This document shows positions 49,969 through 62,921 of a stretch of DNA of 64,000 nucleotides, piece after piece (the stretch's first letter is position 1; the number at the start of each line of letters is the position of its first letter). The position numbers were made by a program, and so were the translations under genes. The DNA lies in NCBI RefSeq assembly GCF_000020965.1, contig NC_011297.1:62001-126000 (forward strand). The letters are read 5' to 3'. This stretch comes from Dictyoglomus thermophilum H-6-12. Its GTDB lineage: Bacteria > Dictyoglomota > Dictyoglomia > Dictyoglomales > Dictyoglomaceae. The notes under the pieces are model-generated. The model was not told where the DNA came from and did no database searches. It worked only from the letters and a program-made list of their open reading frames with translations.

Positions 49969-51435
49969 ATGAGAAAAGAAATTTTAGTAGTTTTTATGGT
50001 TCTTCTTTTAATTGTTTCCGGATGTGCTCCAAAGACTAATGTTACCCAAGCTCAAGTTACCATATTGACTCCAGTAAATGGCTCCTCTGTACCTGGCTCA
50101 GGACTTGTAGATATAATAGCAGAAGTAAATAGTAGTGTGTCCGTAAGCAGGGTAAGATTTTATGTAGATGGAGAGTTTTTAGCTGAGAAAACTGTTACTC
50201 CATATAAGGCTACTTGGGATACTAGTTATTATAAACATGGTACAGCCCACACTATAAAAGTAGAGGCGTTGGATGGTAGTGGAAAGGTTATTGGTTCTTC
50301 CTCCATAGTTTGTTATATAAATGTGGAATGGACAATTTTAATGTATCTTGATGGACATAATGACCTTGAAAATTACATTCAACAAGATATTTCTTATATA
50401 AGTTCTTTTTCAAGGACTGACGGTGTAAATATAGTCATATTAGCTGGTCCTAAGCGATATGTTGCTGAATCTTACTTGTATTACTTTCATAATGGAAAAT
50501 TAGATATTCTCGAATCTGGACTCTATAATTTTGGGAATAGTAATCTTTTGTATTACTTTTTAAAGTATAGTGTAAGTAATTTTCCTGCTAAAAGATATTT
50601 GGTGGTTTTGGAAAATCATGGTAGTGGTTGGAGGGCTCCAGCAAGGGAAGATAGAGACATATGCTTTGATGAGATATCTGGAGATTCTTTGACTATTCCT
50701 GAGCTGAGAGAAGGTTTGAGTTATTTTACCGATATAGGGAAAAAGATTGATCTTCTCTACTTTGATGCTTGCGTGATGGGAAATTTAGAAGTTGCCTATG
50801 AATTAAAAGATGTGGCTAATTATTTAGTATTTTCTGAGGCTAATGTTATTGGACAAACAAGATGGGATCAAATAATGAGTTATATTTTAAGTAATCCATC
50901 AACAACTCCAGAAAGCTTAGGAAGAAAGATTATAGATATATATTATAGTAATTATTCTATCAAACCTATTACCATGTCTTTAATTGACTTAAGTAAGATA
51001 AGTGCAATTTTAGGTGAACTTTATTACTTTTCCAGTTATTTGATGAATACTTTACCTGATTCTGCAAGTGCAATAATGAATATAAGGTTGAATACTTTAT
51101 CTTTTGAGCCTTATGGTGGCTCAAATAAAGAATATATTGATATAAATGATTTTGCTTACAAAATTATTAATAATTCCAACTACAATGAACTTACAAATTC
51201 TGCCTATAATTTAGTCAATTATGTAAGTAGTGCTGTTCTGTATCATAGATATAGTGGATTTAATTATACTTGTGGTCTTTCTATTTGGTTTCCTGCTACT
51301 GTTGAAGATTTTTTAAAGGGTTACAATAAATATAAAGAGCTAAAATTCTATAACAATTCAGGTGGATTTAGTTGGTATTCCTTTATCGTTAATGAATTGT
51401 ATTATTATTTCCAAGTTTCGCTTCCTGGCTTTTGA
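49969..51435 (+). CDS. Clostripain-like (C11) cysteine peptidase lipoprotein
   Basis: 488 residues. Lipobox LLIVSGC (Cys19) anchors it outside the cell. An Ig-like domain (about 30-118, ITILTPVNGSSVPGSG type) precedes the caspase-fold catalytic domain, with His217 in LENHGSGW and Cys268 in YFDACVMGN. C11 peptidases cut after Arg or Lys and often self-activate by cleavage. Likely role: extracellular protein degradation for nutrition. AGGGGGG ribosome site. Confidence 0.88.
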   Translation: MRKEILVVFMVLLLIVSGCAPKTNVTQAQVTILTPVNGSSVPGSGLVDIIAEVNSSVSVSRVRFYVDGEFLAEKTVTPYKATWDTSYYKHGTAHTIKVEALDGSGKVIGSSSIVCYINVEWTILMYLDGHNDLENYIQQDISYISSFSRTDGVNIVILAGPKRYVAESYLYYFHNGKLDILESGLYNFGNSNLLYYFLKYSVSNFPAKRYLVVLENHGSGWRAPAREDRDICFDEISGDSLTIPELREGLSYFTDIGKKIDLLYFDACVMGNLEVAYELKDVANYLVFSEANVIGQTRWDQIMSYILSNPSTTPESLGRKIIDIYYSNYSIKPITMSLIDLSKISAILGELYYFSSYLMNTLPDSASAIMNIRLNTLSFEPYGGSNKEYIDINDFAYKIINNSNYNELTNSAYNLVNYVSSAVLYHRYSGFNYTCGLSIWFPATVEDFLKGYNKYKELKFYNNSGGFSWYSFIVNELYYYFQVSLPGF

Positions 51436-52220: not shown

Positions 52221-52484
52221 ATGTACAAAATAAAATGGGATAAAGAAACCTCTGGTATTTTATTATCAGACTCCCCAGAAGATACAATCATACCGCCTCG
52301 TCCTGTATATTTTGAAGAATTAGATCTTCTTGGTTTTGATAAATATTGGGATTATCCTAAGTGTGAAGAACCGCTACTTTGGGGGTTAAGAGTAGGCTTA
52401 TAAAGGTAGAGTGATATAGGAATGGATCTAAATATTTACGAATTTTTAAGAAAATTACAGGAGGAAGAATTAAATGAGTTCTAA
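52221..52484 (+). pseudogene. brxP: Remnant of BrxP-type PAPS-reductase gene (large internal deletion)
   Basis: The first 54 codons (GILLSDSPEDTIIPPRP, then EELDLLGFDKYWDYP and EEPLLW) match what I recall as the N terminus of the PAPS-reductase-like proteins found in BREX type 4 loci, which run to several hundred residues. The match is lost after PLLWG and a stop follows at 52401. A short open piece at 52422-52484 (MDLNIYEFLRKLQEEE) may be the original C terminus. The ribosome site GGGGGAAAG is still present. Whether the 60-residue product is made is unknown. Confidence 0.7.
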
Positions 52485-53259
52485 AAAACAGTCAGTTTGC
52501 GGAATTAGTAAATATGGAACAATCGGTTTTAGAGAAAATTGGTTAAGATCCTTTCTCAATAAGAAAAAAAAGTGGTTTAAAAATAATAATTTGAGCTCTT
52601 TTCAATATAAAATTTTTGTTAAATGGTTGAGAGATTCGGAAATATTAAACAAAAATGAGATAACATATTTAGGACGTAAACTCATGGAAATATTTAACAA
52701 TGACGAACTTTTGGTATGGGAAATTATCTGGACAAACTTATTTTACAATTCTATCATTATGAAGTGGTATTTAACAAGTATTCCGTGGTCGACCTCTATA
52801 AAGAGGAGTGATCTTAAGCATAATCTCAAAGAAAGTTTTCCATCTTTTAAAGATAAAACTCTTGATACTGCTTTTTCTTGCTTAATTAACACTTTTAGGT
52901 CGAATAATTTTGTTAATAAATTAAATCTTGGAGTTATTGAAAAGAGAGGTAAAGAGGTATATGTCAAAAAAATAGGCACTAACAATGTTCATCCATTGGC
53001 TGTTCTCTACTCTTTGTATAGGTATGCTATCTCCAAGAATAAATATAAACTTACTGTCTCTGAACTTTATAGACAGGAAAATAAAGATGGAGGACCTTAT
53101 TTAATTTTTGGTATTTCGAGGCCAGCTCTTGAAAATATTTTACGCTGGCTACAAGAGAGTAAAAAAGGCTTTATAAGGGTGGATCTTGTGGCTGATTTAG
53201 ACAATATCTATCTTTCTGAAGATATTAAAGATTATAAAAAACTATTAGACTATTACTAG
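52474..53259 (+). CDS. DUF4007-like protein of the BREX locus (first copy)
   Basis: 261 residues. The N-terminal part (YGTIGFRENWLRSFL, then NNLSSFQYKIFVKWLRDSE split around the helix) resembles DUF4007, a domain recalled to accompany or be fused to BrxP in BREX type 4. Family members look like DNA-binding helical proteins, with role unknown. GGAGGAAG ribosome site. Related to the next gene along its full length, so the two arose by tandem duplication. Confidence 0.7.
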   Translation: MSSKKQSVCGISKYGTIGFRENWLRSFLNKKKKWFKNNNLSSFQYKIFVKWLRDSEILNKNEITYLGRKLMEIFNNDELLVWEIIWTNLFYNSIIMKWYLTSIPWSTSIKRSDLKHNLKESFPSFKDKTLDTAFSCLINTFRSNNFVNKLNLGVIEKRGKEVYVKKIGTNNVHPLAVLYSLYRYAISKNKYKLTVSELYRQENKDGGPYLIFGISRPALENILRWLQESKKGFIRVDLVADLDNIYLSEDIKDYKKLLDYY

Positions 53260-53266
53260 GGAAATC

Positions 53267-54035
53267 ATGAGAATAAGTGGTTTTAGATATGGAACTTTTG
53301 GTATGAGAAGGGAGTGGATAAGTAGCTTTCTAAGTAGAGGGAGGGAGTTTTTTGAGAATAACTCCTTAGGGCCAAGACAAATTGAAGCCTTTATTTGGTA
53401 CCTTAGAGATACGGAGCTTATAGATGGGAAGTTAAATTTAACTGAGCTTTTTTGTATACTTAAAAAGATATTTGAAATAGAAGGAATTAATTCTAAAGTT
53501 TTATGGGGGGATAATTTGGGTGAATTTATGCTTTAATGCTCCTCTTTTCAATTGGTGGGCTAATGTACCTGTAGGAAAATATTCAAGAGAAAATATTATT
53601 AATCTTTTGGCTAATTCTTATGGAAAAATGAACAAAACTATTTTAAATGGTTACTCAAGTATTGTAGAAACTCTTGGTAAGAGTCCTATAGGAGAACTAC
53701 TGGGACAAGGGTTAGTAGAAAGAAAAGGTAAAAGAGTAATAAGTGTTGTTAAAAATGGAGGAAAGGATATATCTTCTATTGTGGTTCTATATAACTTGTA
53801 TAGATTTTCTGAAAAAAGAGGGGTTTATAAGATTAATTTAGAAGAGATAGAAAACGATGAACTTTCTCCTCAAAAGATTTTTACTATTTCCTCTTTTGAG
53901 GTAGAGGATATTTTGAAGAATTCCATCTATGACTCCTTCTTTAGGGTGGGGTTTGAGGAGAGGAAGGTTAGTATTTTTTTAGACAAAGGCATTAATAGTA
54001 TTAGTCTATTAAAAACATATGTGGGGGGCTTATAA
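53267..54035 (+). pseudogene. Second DUF4007-like gene, frameshifted at a G6 run
   Basis: The first frame (ISGFRYGTFGMRREWISSFL) ends at 53536; the second frame (from before 53520) continues with WVNLCFNAPLFNWW to 54035. Aligning with the previous gene shows one protein of about 255 residues broken at the six G residues 53505-53510. Five G would restore the frame (VLWG-IIWVNL, matching VWE-IIWTNL in copy 1). It could be an inactive gene, a phase-variable or slippery site, or a sequencing error. Confidence 0.8.
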
Positions 54036-54036
54036 G

Positions 54037-57000
54037 ATGAAGTATAAGGATGTGATAGAGCTTTATGAATATTTTCAGCCCGTGTATGATATAACTTCAG
54101 AATACGGAAATTATTGGAAACAGTTTATACCAACTAAAACCTTTTTAGAAACATTAAAAAGATTTTTAGGTTCCTTGGAAGCAGAAAAAGGTTCTCCAAA
54201 TAGAAAGTCTATTTGGATTCAGGGAGCTTATGGTACGGGAAAAAGTCATGCTACAGGAGTAATAAAACATCTTTTATGGGATGACTTGGAGGAGATTGAG
54301 GATTTTATTGAGAAGATAGATGATGTACAACTTAGAGAAAAATTACGAAGTTTTAGAAGAGAAAATAAAGTTTTTCCTGTTACTTTAAAGGGAGTATCAG
54401 GGATAAGTGATCCAAAAACTTTAAGCCTTGCTATTGAGGAAGCTGTAAAGGAAGCCTTAAAGAGAGAAGGTATAGAGGTACGTACACAAAGTGAATTTGA
54501 AAGATATATTGAAAAAATGTATGATGACTCTATAAATTGGGATAAGATTATAGAAAAAAATATAGAATTAAAGGCTCTTGTAGGGGATCTTGAAGGTCTT
54601 TTAAGAGAACTAAAGAATAGAAATGTTGATGTATTAAGGGCTTTAGATAGATCTTGGGATCTCAATATTCCTCATCCTAAGATAGAAAATTGGTTGGGAG
54701 AAGTTCTAAAGGAGTTACAGGGGAAAGGAATAAGTTCTATTGCTATTTATTGGGATGAGTTTACTCCTTTGATGGAGCTTTCCATAAGTTCTTCTATCTT
54801 AAACATTCTTCAAAATATTGCAGAAAAAAGTCTTAGCGAGAATATATTCCTCCTTATTATAAGTCACAGAAGACCTGAACAGAGTCAAATTTCCAACGTG
54901 GATTATGAGAAGATTTTGGGTAGATTTCATTTTATAGAATATTCTATGGAGAACATAACTACCTTTCATATAATATCTAATGCCATAAGAAAAAAGGACG
55001 AGAAAAGGTGGAGAGAGGTTCGAGAGGAAGTACATAACAAAAATCCTGGATTAAATAGAATAATGCAGAAATTGATTGGAATAGACCTCTCTTTGATAAA
55101 TGTAACTAAAAATCTTTTTCCCATTCATCCTTATACAGCTACTATTGCTACTGCTATTTCTCAGTATATTGGATCTTCAGAGAGAAGTATATTTAACTTT
55201 TTGTATGACCAAGAAAAGGGATTTCAAAAGTTTATATCTGAATACCCTGATGGTAATAATGGCAAAGAATATTTCTTAACAGCTGATTTTCTGTGGGACT
55301 TTTTTCTTGATGATTTTGAAAGAAAACCTCCAGAAAAAGTAGGGCCTATATTGAGTAAATATTCTTTACATAGAGATGCTTTAGAGAAAAAGAGTCCGCA
55401 TCATTCTGCTATATTTAAAGGAATTCTGCTTTTAAATCTATTGCATTCCTTTATCGGTATATCTTCATTAAAAGGTGGGTTTTATTCTCCTTCTGAGGAA
55501 AATATAAAAGATATGTTCTTAGGAACAAGCCATGAAAATTACGTGGATGAAGTTTTGATTGACATTGATAAATTGGGTTATGTTTCTAAAACACCCGATG
55601 GGCTATTTTTGATATCCTTAACCCCACTTCCTCCTCAGGAAATTAATACTGAAAAAGAAATATTAAAGAGAGAATACGAAGATGTCACAAAACTTATACA
55701 TAAGGAGTTAAAAGATGAATTAGAAAAAGCTCTTTTTGGAAATATTCTAAGAGAGGTTGAATTTCAGATATATTGGAGTGGAATTAAAGATTTTGATTTA
55801 AAGAGAAAATTTAAAATTGACTTTCGTAAGCCTCACTCTTTACATATTGCTCTATTCTTATCCAAAGATAAAAGAGAAATTGGTGATATTAAAAACACTA
55901 TAAAAAAGTTAATTGAAGAAGAGGGGATAACTGAAAGAAACTTAATTTTTATTATTTCTGATACTGATTTAGGGGTAGATAATTATGAAAAGATTATTGA
56001 GTATCTTGCGAGAGAGAAAGTTGCAAATACCCACTCTTATAAAGAGGAAGCAGATATTAATAGAGATTATGTGAAAAGGCTCATAGAAGATTGGGTAAAT
56101 AAAATAAAGAGGGGTTATTTTGATGTATATCATCAAAATGAAAGTGGTACACTCGAGTCCTATCCTAGGTTGAGTGTAGTAAGTTTAGAAGATCGCTTAA
56201 ATAAAGTGATATCTCCTAAAATATTTAGATTTGGGTTAGAAAACATAGAAGAGCTAACTAAAAATATTAATATATGGAAAACAAGCCATTCTGAAAAGGT
56301 TGCGGGCATTTTTCTTTCTACAAATACACTAAGTGAGTTGGAAGAAGAAACAAAAAGTGCTCCTTATAGATATTTGAGAGGTATATTTATGAACAATAGA
56401 GGAGAGTATATTGTAGATAAAAATTTAAGGTTCCACAATAATGTTGATATAGATCATCCTACAGTGAGAATATGCAGAGAGGTAGAAAATGAGATAGAGA
56501 AAAATAAAAGCAAAGTCTTTAATCTTGGTGATACTTTGGTATTTTTAAGGAAACCACCTTATGGGCTTTACCACAATCCAATAAATTATGCAGTACTTTC
56601 TTTTGCTTTAAGGCCATTTGTGGGTAAATTATACGAGGCAAATACTGGGAAAAAGTTAACAAGTGAAACCTTAAAGGATAAAGTCGTAGACTTGTTTAAA
56701 TACTGGGATAATGGAAAAGATAAAGAAAAATTAGAAGTAAGACTTGGTACTCCTGCTGAGGAAGAACTAATAGGAGTATTGAAGGAGATGTTTGGTCTTA
56801 GAGAAGAGGACAGTTTAAGTAGTATAAGGTTGAGAATTAGAGAATGGGTGGAAAGAGCAGGTTTTCCTCTGTGGTCTTTAAAGAGTTTTGGAAAGGAAGA
56901 AAAAAGTTTGAATCTTTCATTAGAAGTTTTGGATTTTTTAATAAGTAAGGAAAAATATTTGAATGAGAATATTATTGAAAGATCTATAAATTTGCTTAAG

Positions 57001-58218
57001 ATGAATCAAACTAATTTAAAACCTCTTTTAAACAAAGATAAGCTCAAAGAGGGATTTGTCATATGGTTAAAGAGTTTAGAGGAGGTAAAGATTGAAGATG
57101 AGGAAGTAGAAGAGGTAATTGGTTACCTTCGTAAGAATATGCAAGAGGAAGTAGTTTTATGGAAGGAGGATAAAGTAATAATAAAACTGAAGGACTGGGA
57201 AAAAATAAGGGAAAAAACAAAGAATGAAAGAGAATTCATATCTTCATTAGAAGAGATATTTAATATTCAAACTTCTAAAACCCAAGAAGATCTGCGTGAA
57301 AAAATAAAAGCTCGTATAAATGATTTAGGTTATCCTTTGTGGCTTTTGAGATATGTGCTTAGGGTTGAAATTGGGGAAGCCTTAAAGAATATTGAGGACT
57401 TTATCAAAAGAGAACGTAAATTATCAGAGGAAATTCTTAAAGAGTCTTTGGAGAATATAAGACCTTATGAAAGCTTGCTTTCTAAAAATCTTAGTACTGA
57501 TGTATTAAAAGAAGGTTTTTCTCAATGGGTAAAGGAGAAGAGTGTCTTTAATATAGATTTGGATTCTTTTTATTCTTATCTAAAAGCCAATCTTAATAAA
57601 GACCCATATCAGTGGGGAGAGAAAGATTTAGAGGATACTTTAAGGAAATATGAATTTTCAAAGAAACTATCAGAAGTTTTTGATGTAGATCTTGCTAATT
57701 CTATTACAGAGCTAAGGGAAAATATTAAGAAAAAGGTTCAGGATTCTTTGTATCCGTTTTGGAGTTTTAGTTTGTTGGAAGGGGATGAAGAATATGTTGA
57801 GTTGGTTGAAGAAATTATTAATTTTCTGACTTCAATTCATAACTTAGATATTAGTGAAATTGAAAGATTATCAAAAATGATTAATAGGAAAGGGAACTCT
57901 CTTAAGGAAGCTATAAAAGAACAACGATCTAAAGAACTATTCTTAAAATGGTTAGAAGATATTCTTGGTTTTAACGAAAATGTGGATGAGATTGCTGATG
58001 AAGTAAGAAGAAGTATGTCTGCTGAAGATTATTATTGGAATAAAGATAAAGTGGAGAATTGGATACGAAGGAATCTAGGAAATCTCATCTCTGAAAGGAA
58101 GAAGGAGAGGGTAAAAGAGAAAATAAAGACTACACAGAAAGACCTAAGAGAGATCTTGATAGAGCTTATTGATAAATATCCTCAAATTTGTAGTATATTG
58201 GAGGATATTTTAAAATGA
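54037..58218 (+). CDS. brxC: BREX ATPase BrxC (PglY-like)
   Basis: 1393 residues. A large P-loop protein: Walker A GAYGTGKS at 63-70 and Walker B IAIYWDEF with Asp240-Glu241. The middle is followed by a long C-terminal part of repeated helical units, each with a FPLWSLK- or YPLWLLRYV-type motif, seen at least three times. BrxC/PglY is the essential large ATPase of BREX. The ATG at 54037 follows GTGGGGGG by 9 bases. It overlaps pglZ by 4 bases (ATGA). Confidence 0.82.
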   Translation: MKYKDVIELYEYFQPVYDITSEYGNYWKQFIPTKTFLETLKRFLGSLEAEKGSPNRKSIWIQGAYGTGKSHATGVIKHLLWDDLEEIEDFIEKIDDVQLREKLRSFRRENKVFPVTLKGVSGISDPKTLSLAIEEAVKEALKREGIEVRTQSEFERYIEKMYDDSINWDKIIEKNIELKALVGDLEGLLRELKNRNVDVLRALDRSWDLNIPHPKIENWLGEVLKELQGKGISSIAIYWDEFTPLMELSISSSILNILQNIAEKSLSENIFLLIISHRRPEQSQISNVDYEKILGRFHFIEYSMENITTFHIISNAIRKKDEKRWREVREEVHNKNPGLNRIMQKLIGIDLSLINVTKNLFPIHPYTATIATAISQYIGSSERSIFNFLYDQEKGFQKFISEYPDGNNGKEYFLTADFLWDFFLDDFERKPPEKVGPILSKYSLHRDALEKKSPHHSAIFKGILLLNLLHSFIGISSLKGGFYSPSEENIKDMFLGTSHENYVDEVLIDIDKLGYVSKTPDGLFLISLTPLPPQEINTEKEILKREYEDVTKLIHKELKDELEKALFGNILREVEFQIYWSGIKDFDLKRKFKIDFRKPHSLHIALFLSKDKREIGDIKNTIKKLIEEEGITERNLIFIISDTDLGVDNYEKIIEYLAREKVANTHSYKEEADINRDYVKRLIEDWVNKIKRGYFDVYHQNESGTLESYPRLSVVSLEDRLNKVISPKIFRFGLENIEELTKNINIWKTSHSEKVAGIFLSTNTLSELEEETKSAPYRYLRGIFMNNRGEYIVDKNLRFHNNVDIDHPTVRICREVENEIEKNKSKVFNLGDTLVFLRKPPYGLYHNPINYAVLSFALRPFVGKLYEANTGKKLTSETLKDKVVDLFKYWDNGKDKEKLEVRLGTPAEEELIGVLKEMFGLREEDSLSSIRLRIREWVERAGFPLWSLKSFGKEEKSLNLSLEVLDFLISKEKYLNENIIERSINLLKMNQTNLKPLLNKDKLKEGFVIWLKSLEEVKIEDEEVEEVIGYLRKNMQEEVVLWKEDKVIIKLKDWEKIREKTKNEREFISSLEEIFNIQTSKTQEDLREKIKARINDLGYPLWLLRYVLRVEIGEALKNIEDFIKRERKLSEEILKESLENIRPYESLLSKNLSTDVLKEGFSQWVKEKSVFNIDLDSFYSYLKANLNKDPYQWGEKDLEDTLRKYEFSKKLSEVFDVDLANSITELRENIKKKVQDSLYPFWSFSLLEGDEEYVELVEEIINFLTSIHNLDISEIERLSKMINRKGNSLKEAIKEQRSKELFLKWLEDILGFNENVDEIADEVRRSMSAEDYYWNKDKVENWIRRNLGNLISERKKERVKEKIKTTQKDLREILIELIDKYPQICSILEDILK

Positions 58219-60380
58219 TCTCTGTCCTTCATAAAGAGGAATTTAGGGACAAAGTAGAAGAAGATAAGGAAAATAGAATTCCCTCTTATTGCAGATTCCC
58301 TGTAAGGTTTATATTATTAGAAAATTTTGAAGATTTAAGAGATGTGGTGGAAAATTTCAAGGATAAGGCTAATATTTTTGATATTACAGATCTTGAGATT
58401 TTTGCTAAAAACCATGATGGGTGGATAACCCCTAATGCGATTATAAATAAAATTAAAAGTCTTACCCCCAATAGTGACCATCTTATACTTTTGCTTTCTG
58501 AGATTGTAAGATTTCTTTCTGATGAAGAGTTCTTTAGTTTTTTTAGTGGTTTGATGAGTATAGAAAATTTGGATATATCCTATTACCGGAGACGTTTATA
58601 TATTCCCTTGGTAGGTATTACTCAAAGATTTATAAATATCTTTTGGGATAAGTATAATAGAAGAGAAGAATTTAGCCCAGTATGGCAGATTTTAGGAAAT
58701 AAAGACAGGTATAATTTATTCCTGGTGAGTTTTGACTTTGAGGTAAATCCTGAAGAATTCACACTAATTAATTCTTCAAAGGATTTTTTAGATCTATGGA
58801 AGAAGCCGAATATAAATAATAAGTTAATTTCTAAATCAAAAACTCTTTGGTGTTTTTCTTCAAAAGTTTTTAGCGATGAATTTTTTGAAATAACAAGGAT
58901 CAACAATATAAAAGAATACTTATCAGAGGTTCTAAAAATTAAAGTTCCTTTTTCTTATAAAGATGAAGATGAAAACTTCTGGAAAATCTTACTTAGGGAA
59001 TTAGAAAATAGGAAATTACATAACCTTTATGATTTCATAGGAGAGTACCTTAATATAAAGAGGTTAGAAACAGAAAATCCTATATCTTTATGGATTAAAA
59101 AAGAGAGTGATTTTTCGCACTGGCTTATTAAAAATTACTATCTTTCTGATCCTAACTTTGAGAACGCTTATATAAGAGAAGTGGTTTCTTCTATAAGAGG
59201 TTATGATTTTAGGGATTTTCTTGAGAATTATTTTTTTAAAATTTTCGATAAAAAGTTTTCTTCCGATGTGTTTGATGAAAGAAGAAAAGTTCTTCGAGAG
59301 TTTTACTTAGAAAAAAAGGATATGGACTTTAAATTCCTTGAGAATCCTTTAGAAGAAAGATTTGGTTTATTAACTAAAGAGGAAATTCCTAAATACCTTA
59401 CAGGTATCACTTTCTTTGAGAAAAAATGGATTGTAGAAAATTTAGATTTAGTAAAGAATTTGAAGAATGTTTATCCAGAATTAGAATTCTATTTAAGAGA
59501 TTTAAGCTTTAATAATTTGGCAGAAGAAAACTTATGGCTCAAAGATTATTTCAAAGAATATCGTATTTCTAGAATAAAAAATAGTCCTTCTGAAAAACTT
59601 ATTGAGATAATCTCTAATAAAAATATTAATTTAGATACTCTTTACAAATGCTATCATTCCTTTGAGGAAGTAGATAAATTGATAGAAGATGAAGATGAAA
59701 AAATATGGATTGATGGATTAGGAGTAGAGTTTTTACCTCTTGTAGTCTCACTCCTCGAAGAAAAGAAATATTACGTAGATTTTAGAATTGCGATATCTAA
59801 TCCTTTTTTAAATGATAGGTTTAATGATTTTGAAAATATGGAGAGAATATCACTTTTGGATGATTTTAACCAGAGCAATGGGTATAAATATCCCGAAAAT
59901 TTAATAGTAGAGATAGAAATTGTAAGAAAAGTAGTGGATAAAATTTCTGAGTTTAGGGATAGATTTGTAATATTTTCCAATCGAGGTTTTAGAAGTTTTA
60001 CTTATGAATTTAACAAAGAAGATCTGGTTGATAGTTTTCAGGAAAAGTCAGCTCCTGAAGAGGTTTTAATTCCTGTAATATATGCATCTAAAAGGTCTTG
60101 GGAGGATATAGTTTACAAGATCACGCTCCTTGATGAGGTAATTTCTTATAGAAAACCGATTTTGAGATTTAAGGTTAAGCCTAAGCCTAAAAATAGAATT
60201 TCTATAAGATGTAAAGATAGGGAATTAACAGTCAGTTATGATGGCGTAAATGATTTATATGAGGTAGATTTTTCTAAATTCAAACCAGGAGAGTATAAAA
60301 TTACCATTATTATTGGGGCTTGGGAGGAGACTAAGATTATTACTTTGAAAGGAGGTTTCAAAGAAAGAGATATATTATGA
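58215..60380 (+). CDS. pglZ: BREX type 4-like PglZ protein
   Basis: 721 residues. The C-terminal alkaline-phosphatase-like PglZ part shows WIDGLGVEFLPLVVSLLEE, with Asp500 the expected metal ligand. The later motif, usually SDHG, reads FSNRGF (588-592), so the second Asp and the His are replaced by Asn and Arg. The N-terminal 480 residues are helical, typical of type 4 PglZ. PglZ binds BrxB or BrxC partners in other types. Four-base overlaps on both sides tie it to brxC and brxL. Confidence 0.75.
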   Translation: MISVLHKEEFRDKVEEDKENRIPSYCRFPVRFILLENFEDLRDVVENFKDKANIFDITDLEIFAKNHDGWITPNAIINKIKSLTPNSDHLILLLSEIVRFLSDEEFFSFFSGLMSIENLDISYYRRRLYIPLVGITQRFINIFWDKYNRREEFSPVWQILGNKDRYNLFLVSFDFEVNPEEFTLINSSKDFLDLWKKPNINNKLISKSKTLWCFSSKVFSDEFFEITRINNIKEYLSEVLKIKVPFSYKDEDENFWKILLRELENRKLHNLYDFIGEYLNIKRLETENPISLWIKKESDFSHWLIKNYYLSDPNFENAYIREVVSSIRGYDFRDFLENYFFKIFDKKFSSDVFDERRKVLREFYLEKKDMDFKFLENPLEERFGLLTKEEIPKYLTGITFFEKKWIVENLDLVKNLKNVYPELEFYLRDLSFNNLAEENLWLKDYFKEYRISRIKNSPSEKLIEIISNKNINLDTLYKCYHSFEEVDKLIEDEDEKIWIDGLGVEFLPLVVSLLEEKKYYVDFRIAISNPFLNDRFNDFENMERISLLDDFNQSNGYKYPENLIVEIEIVRKVVDKISEFRDRFVIFSNRGFRSFTYEFNKEDLVDSFQEKSAPEEVLIPVIYASKRSWEDIVYKITLLDEVISYRKPILRFKVKPKPKNRISIRCKDRELTVSYDGVNDLYEVDFSKFKPGEYKITIIIGAWEETKIITLKGGFKERDIL

Positions 60381-61816
60381 GGGAGTTAAAACCTTTAGAT
60401 TTTAAGATTAAAAGAGTATTTCCTCAGGAATCGGTTTTGAAGAAGAAAGAGGTTTACAGTGTATTTCATGGAAAAAATATTCCCTCTTTTATCAAGGATT
60501 GGTTGGTTAAGAAATTCACTGGAGAGGATGATGTAGTTGATTTAGATAATCTTATGGATTACATGAATAAGCATATTCCCCAAAAAGAGTCCGAGAAGAC
60601 TTTTAAAGGAAGAATTATGTATGATAAAGGTGTACATAGAGTTCTTACAAGGATTGTGGTAGAGCCAGATGTGAATGAGGGGATTTTTAGATTTTCTATT
60701 CCCGATTTAGGAATTACCTTTAGAGAAGGTAGAGTGTCAGAGCATCTCTTGGAGGAGCATAATGAGCTTAAGGGAGGAGAAGTTTGGGGAATTTTTACTT
60801 TAACTTATGTTCCTAAAGATGCTTTAGATGAAAAAGGGTTCATTGAGTTAGTAGATTATGAACCCTTCAAACCTTACGAAGTGGATTTAGAGTACTTTAG
60901 AGAGGGAAGGAAAGAATTTACTCTTGAAGAGTGGATTGATGTATTAATAAGAGCCATGGAATATAATCCTGATGGTTTTGCGGATTTAGAACAAAAGTTA
61001 CTCTTTATTTCAAGACTTTTGATATTTGTTGAACCCCGATTAAATATGATAGAGCTTTCTCCTAAAGGAACTGGTAAGTCCTATATATTTAATAATTTAA
61101 GTAAATATGGTTGGTGTGTAAGTGGGGGAATCGTTACTAGAGCCAAAATGTTCTATGATATGAAAAGAAACGTTTTTGGATTCATAACTAAGTATGATTT
61201 TGTGGCTTTAGATGAAGTGCAAACAATAACTTTTTCCAACGATGATGAAATGAAAGGAGCATTAAAAAATTATCTGGAATTTGGCAAATTTACCGTTGCA
61301 AATGTTACCGGTATTTCTAATGCAGGTTTGATGTTACTTGGAAATATTCTTTTAGATTCAAATATGCAACCTATAAACAGAAGTTATTTTGAAGAACTTC
61401 CTGAAATTTTCCGAGAGTCAGCCTTGCTGGACAGATTCCATGGCTTTATCGAAGGGTGGAAATTGCCAAGAATTAACGAAGATATGAAAGTGCAAGGATA
61501 TACTCTAAATGTAGAGTACTTTTCTGAAATACTTCACATTTTAAGGGATTGTCCAGAATTTTCTGCTATAGTAGAAGATCTTATAAATATACCTCCTAAG
61601 GCAGATACGAGAGATGTCAATGCTATAAAAAGGCTTTCTTCTGCTTATTTGAGATTACTATTTCCTCATGTTAGAAGGCCTGGTGATATTAGTAAGGAGG
61701 ATTTTGAGAGATTTTGTTTAAAACCTGCTATTGAGAAAAGAGGAATAATTAGAAGACAATTACATATTTTGGATCAAGAATACAAAGAAGAATTACCAGA
61801 TATAGGGGTGAGATAA
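60377..61816 (+). CDS. brxL: BREX protein BrxL, AAA+ core without Lon-like tail
   Basis: 479 residues. Walker A SPKGTGKSYIF with Lys234, Walker B FVALDEVQ with Asp279, and ANVTGISNAGLMLLGNI typical of BrxL. BrxL is a DNA-binding AAA+ ring protein of BREX types 1 and 4. Full-length type 1 proteins are about 680 residues with a Lon-like C-terminal domain. This one stops soon after the AAA+ lid region. It is tightly coupled to pglZ and to the next gene. Confidence 0.85.
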   Translation: MRELKPLDFKIKRVFPQESVLKKKEVYSVFHGKNIPSFIKDWLVKKFTGEDDVVDLDNLMDYMNKHIPQKESEKTFKGRIMYDKGVHRVLTRIVVEPDVNEGIFRFSIPDLGITFREGRVSEHLLEEHNELKGGEVWGIFTLTYVPKDALDEKGFIELVDYEPFKPYEVDLEYFREGRKEFTLEEWIDVLIRAMEYNPDGFADLEQKLLFISRLLIFVEPRLNMIELSPKGTGKSYIFNNLSKYGWCVSGGIVTRAKMFYDMKRNVFGFITKYDFVALDEVQTITFSNDDEMKGALKNYLEFGKFTVANVTGISNAGLMLLGNILLDSNMQPINRSYFEELPEIFRESALLDRFHGFIEGWKLPRINEDMKVQGYTLNVEYFSEILHILRDCPEFSAIVEDLINIPPKADTRDVNAIKRLSSAYLRLLFPHVRRPGDISKEDFERFCLKPAIEKRGIIRRQLHILDQEYKEELPDIGVR

Positions 61817-61818
61817 AA

Positions 61819-62403
61819 ATGTCATATGATTTTTATGAGGATGAACTTTTTGAAAAGATAGAAGAAATTCTTAAAGGAGAGGATAAGATAGAGGAATCAA
61901 CTCTGACAAATTTTGGAAAAGATCAATTCTATAAAATTGTTGAGATGCTCACTGAGGAACTTGAGAAAATGTCACGTGATATTAACAATCTCTCTAAAAG
62001 GGTAGAGTATTTGAAGGAAAAGCTCAAAAAGGTTTTATCTTATAAGGGAGAATATAAACCTATTGAGAAAGAAAGAAATGTAGGAAAAAGACCTTCAAGA
62101 GGTTTAGCAACACCAAAAGAAGAATATTATATCCCTATTCTTGAAAGTCTTTACGAGTTAGGTGGAAGGGGAACTATTGGAGAAGTTCTTGATAGAGTTG
62201 GAGAAAAGATGAAATATGTCTTGAACGAATATGATTATGAGTTTCTGCAATCTGGTAATATTCGTTGGAGGAATCGTGCTCAATGGACAAGGCTTGAACT
62301 TGTTCACCAAGGTTTGTTAAAGAATAACTCTCCTAATGGGGTCTGGGAGCTTTCTGAGAAAGGATATAAATTTTTAATGGAGAAAAAGAAGAGTGGTTCT
62401 TAG
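61819..62403 (+). CDS. Coiled-coil protein with Mrr_N-like winged helix
   Basis: 194 residues. Residues 3-11 (YDFYEDELF) open a short tag shared with the next gene. A predicted coiled coil (about 36-72) and a basic linker lead to a winged-helix region at 101-188 ([38 protein letters not shown] split within), similar to the N-terminal DNA-binding domain of Mrr restriction enzymes. The nuclease domain is absent. Two bases after brxL. Likely a DNA-binding accessory protein of the BREX operon (inference). Confidence 0.72.
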
Positions 62404-62405
62404 CC

Positions 62406-62921
62406 ATGCCTGATTATGATTTTTATGAAGAGGAGCTTTTTAGCAGGGTAGAGGAGCTTTTAAAGGAATTAGAGGCCAAAGAGGAAGCTGATTTAGAGAA
62501 AGCGTCGAGGAAGGGAGAGAAAAAAGATTATAGAGTAAGGATAAAGAAGTTTAAGTTTTCTCGTCGCTATACACCTTTAGAGGAATTGCATATAGAGGAG
62601 AGCGAAGAAGTTTCTGATCATTATGAGTACTTTGAGGAAGAAAATATTTATGCTATTCAGGATTTAATTGAGGATCCAAGAAGCATAGAAGAGACAATAG
62701 AGCAAATAGATATTAGAAGAGAGATTGAGAGGGCACTTGATGCCCTCTCAGAAAGGGAAAGAGAGATATTAAAATGGAGATATGGTTTTAAAGATGGGAA
62801 GCCAAGAACTTTAGAAGAAGTTGGTAAATTATTTAATATAACAAGGGAGAGAGTTAGACAAATTGAAGAGAGAGCCCTACGTAAGTTAAGACACATTTTA
62901 CAGCAAAGAGATGTATGGTAA
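62406..62921 (+). CDS. Sigma-70 region 4 protein closing the BREX operon
   Basis: 171 residues. After the tag YDFYEEELF (4-12) comes a charged linker, then a complete sigma-70 region 4 (about 103-165): [29 protein letters not shown] and [19 protein letters not shown], very close to the primary sigma factor. Regions 2 and 3 are missing, so it cannot be a full sigma factor. It may bind -35-like DNA or the RNA polymerase flap. It starts two bases after the previous stop and converges with the Gfo/Idh gene. Confidence 0.85.

Follow-up and report, generated by a model that had tools for sequence, protein, structure and literature searches.

A tagged sigma-70 factor most likely marks a variant of BREX type 4, with a relic in Dictyoglomus thermophilum

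Introduction

At the end of a BREX operon, an operon for phage defence, in the heat-loving Dictyoglomus thermophilum H-6-12, two adjacent genes encode unrelated proteins, one a winged-helix (wHTH) protein of the Mrr_N type and the other derived from sigma-70, which begin with the same short helix, and this raises the question of why both would carry it and what a sigma factor would do beside brxL. The window, i.e., the whole stretch of DNA analysed here, comprises 64,000 nucleotides (NC_011297.1, positions 62,001 to 126,000), and an earlier note made from its letters alone had proposed that the common tag docks both proteins on one partner, with one arm that reads DNA and another that engages RNA polymerase. 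The reading that we favour, with a probability of roughly 0.6, is that a sigma factor and, separately, a wHTH protein are tethered through a docking helix to one of the core proteins of BREX-4, and we infer both the partner and the function from the sequences compared.

Table 1. Features of the eroded BREX-4 operon and its two terminal genes, in window positions
Feature	Coordinates	Strand	Evidence
brxP 5' remnant, first 60 aa then stop; PAPS-reductase part gone	52221..52403	+	Frame translation
DUF4007 domain, C-terminal part of BrxP	52474..53259	+	PADLOC BrxP profile positions 517-773, E=1e-66
Second DUF4007 gene, frameshift-split (53267-53536, 53520-54035)	53267..54035	+	ORFs, profile, translation
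brxC ATPase, full length	54019..58218	+	PADLOC BrxC E=2.7e-276; 66% identical to G005
pglZ, in-frame deletion of ~60 aa, SDHG to SNRG	58215..60380	+	NF033445 match breaks at 607/667; alignment
brxL, full length	60377..61816	+	TIGR02688, 516 bits
Tagged wHTH protein, 194 aa	61819..62403	+	Mrr_N E=6.5e-14; AlphaFold2 model
wHTH protein N-terminal tag, 17 residues	61825..61875	+	DNA pattern, shuffles, PSSM, tag-tag base comparison
wHTH protein predicted coiled-coil helix, residues 32-75	61912..62043	+	AlphaFold2, low to middling confidence
Mrr_N winged helix, residues 102-186 of the wHTH protein	62122..62376	+	Pfam; pLDDT >80
Tagged, internally deleted sigma-70, 171 aa	62406..62921	+	Alignment with 332-aa full-length orthologs of G005 and G003
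Sigma protein N-terminal tag, 17 residues	62415..62465	+	DNA pattern, shuffles, PSSM, tag-tag base comparison
Sigma-70 region 4, residues 110-163 of the 171-aa protein	62733..62894	+	Sigma70_r4 PF04545 E=1.9e-21

The Operon and Its Terminal Gene Pair

The operon contains the BrxL and BrxC of BREX-4, and its PglZ is also of this class, scoring 420 bits with the NF033445 (PglZ_4) model, for which the cut-off is 140. Of BrxP, only the 60-aa start and the C-terminal DUF4007 domain persist in the window, without the PAPS reductase for phosphorothioation, and since this part has been lost, the operon is to be understood as a degraded descendant of BREX-4, not a complete system; intact BrxP proteins of 788-803 aa are encoded in G004, G005, and G052. 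The catalytic signature of PglZ is likewise absent, with SNRG in the place of SDHG and the HGG stretch lying within the deletion, and the protein is probably inactive, while brxC, brxL, and the wHTH gene look intact. Relative to G005/G003, BrxL and BrxC have dN/dS values of 0.14-0.15, and PglZ and the sigma gene have a value of 0.26; this shows past constraint and provides no date for the deletion or the losses.

Other traces of erosion were seen in related genomes. In G001, of the same genus, only fragments of brxP, pglZ, and the sigma gene are found (L078, 5621-7212), at the same chromosomal site following a phosphoketolase gene, and in G006 a short brxL remnant is followed by a sigma remnant (L102, 3055-3648), with no match in a PglZ_4 profile search of this genome. 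A lipoprotein resembling clostripain-type peptidases is encoded near the BREX-4 operon both in the window (49969-51435) and in G052, of another lineage (L013, 12299-13783).

Both of the last genes start with YDFYE(D/E)ELF followed by an amphipathic helix, as the earlier note had described, and their coordinates also agree with the spacing that it gave, given that brxL ends at 61816 and that the brxL-wHTH and wHTH-sigma gaps are of 2 bases each. The first protein had been credited with a coiled coil and an Mrr_N winged helix, of which the latter was recovered with Pfam at 52.3 bits (the PF14338 gathering score is 29.5) and the former is predicted by AlphaFold2. In this model, residues 4-19, which hold the tag, form a helix of their own on a disordered linker, followed by the coiled coil and a confident winged helix, and a Foldseek search with the model returned ordinary winged-helix DNA-binding proteins.

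The second protein had been said to carry only sigma-70 region 4, and this domain is indeed present, but the word "only" did not hold, as the alignment places a region-3.2-like stretch in front of it and the protein derives from a full sigma factor by deletion. Containing just these two parts, it is not a sigma-70 with regions 2 and 4, and AlphaFold2 models the relic alone with low confidence (mean pLDDT 47).

Full-Length Sigma Factors in Relatives

Relatives with the same gene order were found by a search of 193 genomes with the wHTH protein. In G005 and G003, which are MAGs from one sample series and not fully independent, a tagged full-length sigma-70 of 332 aa comes after the tagged wHTH gene, which in G003 is interrupted by a TGA codon. 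Regions 1.2, 2, 3, and 4 are all present in this sigma-70, and among PDB entries the G003 protein is best matched by a housekeeping SigA (E=1.4e-77 over residues 5-332). The window protein aligns to the tag, the linker, region 3.2, and region 4 of these relatives, with regions 1.2-3.1 missing in frame, and it descends from a full sigma-70 factor by an in-frame deletion. The possibility that the region-4 protein is the ancestral form is ruled out by the full-length relatives.

A tagged wHTH gene followed by a tagged sigma gene was also found in L018 and in G052 (L016), where the contig ends inside the sigma gene and leaves its N-terminal half, whereas in G004 a tagged sigma of ~307 aa lies directly after brxL, with no wHTH gene there. 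The G004 sigma (L076, 6053-6997) lacks regions 3.0/3.1, and one end of this gap falls at the same FKF point as the deletion in the window.

The G003, G005, G004, and L018 sigma factors cluster together in a clade that is distinct from RpoD, with a support of 86/87, which is under the usual 95/80 mark on the bootstrap value. In the alignment, the sigma factors of the relatives largely keep the RpoD-like residues for -10 and -35 recognition, and they should therefore load the host RNA polymerase at ordinary promoters.

Sequence and Specificity of the Tag

The tag of both proteins follows the pattern [D/E]-x-phi-x-E-E-E-phi-phi-x-x-I-E-E-x-L-K, and the two copies in the window are identical at 37 of their 51 bases. 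Among 20,000 shuffled N-termini for each operon, the similarity between the wHTH and sigma proteins was matched by none in G000 and G005, by 2 in L018, and by 14 in G052; a control with unshuffled N-termini, which is inflated by orthologs, was left out.

In the single-contig genome of the window (1,959,987 bases), which was checked by a DNA pattern search, the degenerate tag pattern has two exact matches, i.e., the wHTH and sigma genes, and when two mismatches are allowed the genome totals are the same as those of the reversed-pattern control. A PSSM, built from the same tagged genes that it ranks at the top, was run over 662,403 18-mers from all the fetched loci, and only tagged genes exceeded 19.1 bits; the leave-one-out scores were 22-46 bits for eight of the nine tags, and the L018 wHTH tag fits the model poorly, with a left-out score of -8.8. 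A low-complexity helix that is found everywhere, which the earlier note had named as the outcome that would undo its idea, is ruled out by the exact matches at these two genes alone and by the specificity of the PSSM scan.

Two other proteins encoded after brxL present helices that resemble the tag. One is a zinc-finger protein (L021, 11441-11647) with a weakly tag-like C-terminal helix (EDLLWRKIEEFKEQG) of 19.1 bits, and the C-terminal helix of the BREX-4 zinc fingers may perhaps represent the same docking site, a resemblance kept as a weak lead only because most of the other zinc fingers score like shuffled controls. The other is a different 182-aa protein of G042 (L075, 6204-6749), whose N-terminal helix (SLEELEQNLLLQQLDEIIEAFESKEG) is weakly similar to the tag, at 5.2 bits.

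Distribution across BREX-4 Loci

The comparison covered 49 BREX-4 loci, several of them MAG contigs, which were obtained by a scan of genome contigs with BrxL alignment, and since the scan uses exact peptide patterns, divergent loci may be missed. Tagged sigma genes occur in three lineages, the Dictyoglomota and two other MAG lineages, and a MAG labelled as Dictyoglomus carries the same locus as the window. All the tagged sigma genes and remnants that were found, those of G001 and G006 included, adjoin brxL or other genes of BREX-4 or what is left of them, and the loci examined yielded no tagged gene standing free of BREX-4, so the expected recurrence of the pair beside BREX-4 genes was observed, and not a distribution mainly away from them.

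The tagged sigma is restricted to loci with BrxL sequences ~65% or more identical to that of the window, and tagged genes are absent from L017 (Atribacterota), G042 (63%), and G440, which are loci of the same BrxL clade. At that place, most of the other BREX-4 loci examined encode a zinc finger and a cysteine desulfurase and no sigma factor, and in the BREX-4 locus of an archaeal Methanosphaera plasmid no tag gene is annotated after brxL, where there is a DUF262 gene. Given this, the wHTH and sigma proteins recur as a pair, as first proposed, but the pair is not an obligatory one, considering G004, with a tagged sigma and no wHTH gene, and the majority of the BREX-4 loci, which have neither.

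The viral contigs searched contained a single untagged wHTH relative, beside a methyltransferase-like gene, while the phages searched returned no match and the plasmids searched only short matches to the Mrr_N part. In L010 (G187), there are three consecutive matches to the Mrr_N winged helix, and the first falls within a DUF262-like protein, toward its C-terminus.

A Tag on a Copy of the Host rpoD

The tagged sigma gene of G052 and the rpoD gene of the same host have a DNA identity of 97.2% over 317 bp. This evidence comes from a metagenome assembly with a break inside the sigma gene, and an exact overlap of 141 bases may be an assembly overlap; outside it, 167 of the 176 bases (95%) are identical. 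The host rpoD adjoins a primase-like gene and starts without the tag.

Judged by this identity, the tagged sigma body was recently copied from the host's own rpoD, and because the tag sits on this copy while the host rpoD is untagged, tag and sigma body are separable. So, in the G052 lineage, either the sigma body was exchanged behind a tag that persisted, or the tag was put on a second body. Of the evidence in this analysis, the rpoD copy is the strongest for a function of the tag itself.

Docking and Its Alternatives

Docking on a common partner is the best reading of these data because a linker-borne helix is common to two unrelated proteins of one operon, and the partner is probably a BREX core protein because in G004 the tag sits on a sigma without any wHTH protein. 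Under the proposed mechanism, a subset of the BREX-4 operons would encode a dedicated primary-type sigma-70 directly after brxL, usually with an Mrr_N winged-helix protein before it, and the shared N-terminal amphipathic helix would dock both proteins on one surface of a BREX-4 core protein, for which BrxL, BrxC, PglZ, or BrxP/DUF4007 are the candidates. The docked sigma, given its near-canonical promoter-reading residues, would then join the host RNA polymerase to the BREX complex. In the window, regions 1.2-3.1 were lost in frame in an operon that is eroding, and the region-4 protein that is left has most likely lost the ancestral function and is a relic.

The initial proposal of a shared docking site thus remains the best reading of a tag that is real, specific, and recurrent, although G004 removes the need for both arms, and one arm does belong to the world of RNA polymerase, although an adaptor with region 4 only by design does not agree with the full sigma of the relatives and the deleted copy of the window. 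If the sigma is held by the docking helix, there would be a direct physical link between BREX and RNA polymerase, which is testable, and the tag would offer a 17-residue handle toward the core protein that organises the complex. A bolder possibility, advanced tentatively, is that host transcription and one BREX-4 subtype are physically linked by a conserved helix that was grafted onto sigmas with separate origins, a fresh copy of a host rpoD among them, and that might recruit the holoenzyme to BREX, or BREX to promoters, such that defence or modification would be linked to transcription.

Among the alternatives, a rather unlikely one survives best, in which the sigma is dedicated to regulating the BREX-4 operon and the tag is an anti-sigma-like tether on the BREX complex, from which it would be freed on infection to boost transcription. 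The sigma is encoded within the very operon to be controlled, it retains most of the residues for -10 and -35 recognition, and the four loci that were read have TATAAT-like -10 elements upstream of brxP, with a precedent in the DNA-damage-induced regulators of immune operons known from PMC13373217; on the other hand, with recognition residues so close to the canonical ones no private set of promoters is predicted, and regulation alone leaves unexplained a tag that is shared with a DNA-binding wHTH protein. If the sigma did control the operon, it would be a dedicated switch of BREX expression, of which no report was found in the literature searched.

It is improbable that the tag is a stability, degradation, or translation-coupling element, or a by-product of 5'-end duplication, as opposed to a docking helix. 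While the tag is indeed short and charged, and lies at the very N-terminal end of proteins whose genes are adjacent and co-translated, its pattern is conserved on diverged copies in three lineages, on two unrelated bodies and a recent rpoD copy, and is absent from the host rpoD. Very doubtful, too, is a working adaptor in the window, in which the tag would grip BREX while region 4 would hold on to -35 DNA or to the flap of the polymerase: the in-frame deletion preserved both parts, with brxC, brxL, and the wHTH gene intact, but the relatives have a full-length sigma, PglZ and BrxP are broken in the same operon, and the same-genus G001 has only remnants at the site. Least credible is a tag that pairs the wHTH protein with the sigma helix to helix, without any BREX partner, since in spite of the amphipathic helices and the adjacency of the genes in most loci, the tagged sigma of G004 has no wHTH gene beside brxL, which makes it unlikely that the tag serves this pairing alone.

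Comparison with Known Systems

The split sigma factor SigO/RsoA of B. subtilis includes a region-4-bearing protein that lacks region 2, and the window likewise encodes a region-4 protein without region 2, but with no separate region-2 partner in the operon. MzaA, of the MZA defence system, is also a sigma-70 protein of a defence operon, but the system is a different one, and the match covers only the C-terminal part of the sigma and falls under the NCBIfam cut-off. The tagged sigma factors of the relatives resemble RpoD/SigA in having regions 1.2-4, and differ in the tag and linker in front, in the lack of region 1.1 in the Dictyoglomota copies, and in forming a separate clade.

BREX type 4 comprises BrxP/DUF4007, BrxC, PglZ, and BrxL, together with a cysteine desulfurase and a zinc finger, according to the type-4 section of PMC12839542, and the window presents the same core genes in the same order, with matches to the curated PglZ_4 and BrxL models. 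That section has neither a sigma factor nor an Mrr_N protein, and no description of a sigma factor as a BREX component was found in the literature searched. In comparison with the arrangement given in that section, the place after brxL is taken by the wHTH and sigma genes instead of those for the zinc finger and the desulfurase. The intact relatives suggest an undescribed link between BREX-4 and transcription, and BREX-4 with a docking-tagged sigma factor is most likely a variant of the system, of which the window holds a relic.
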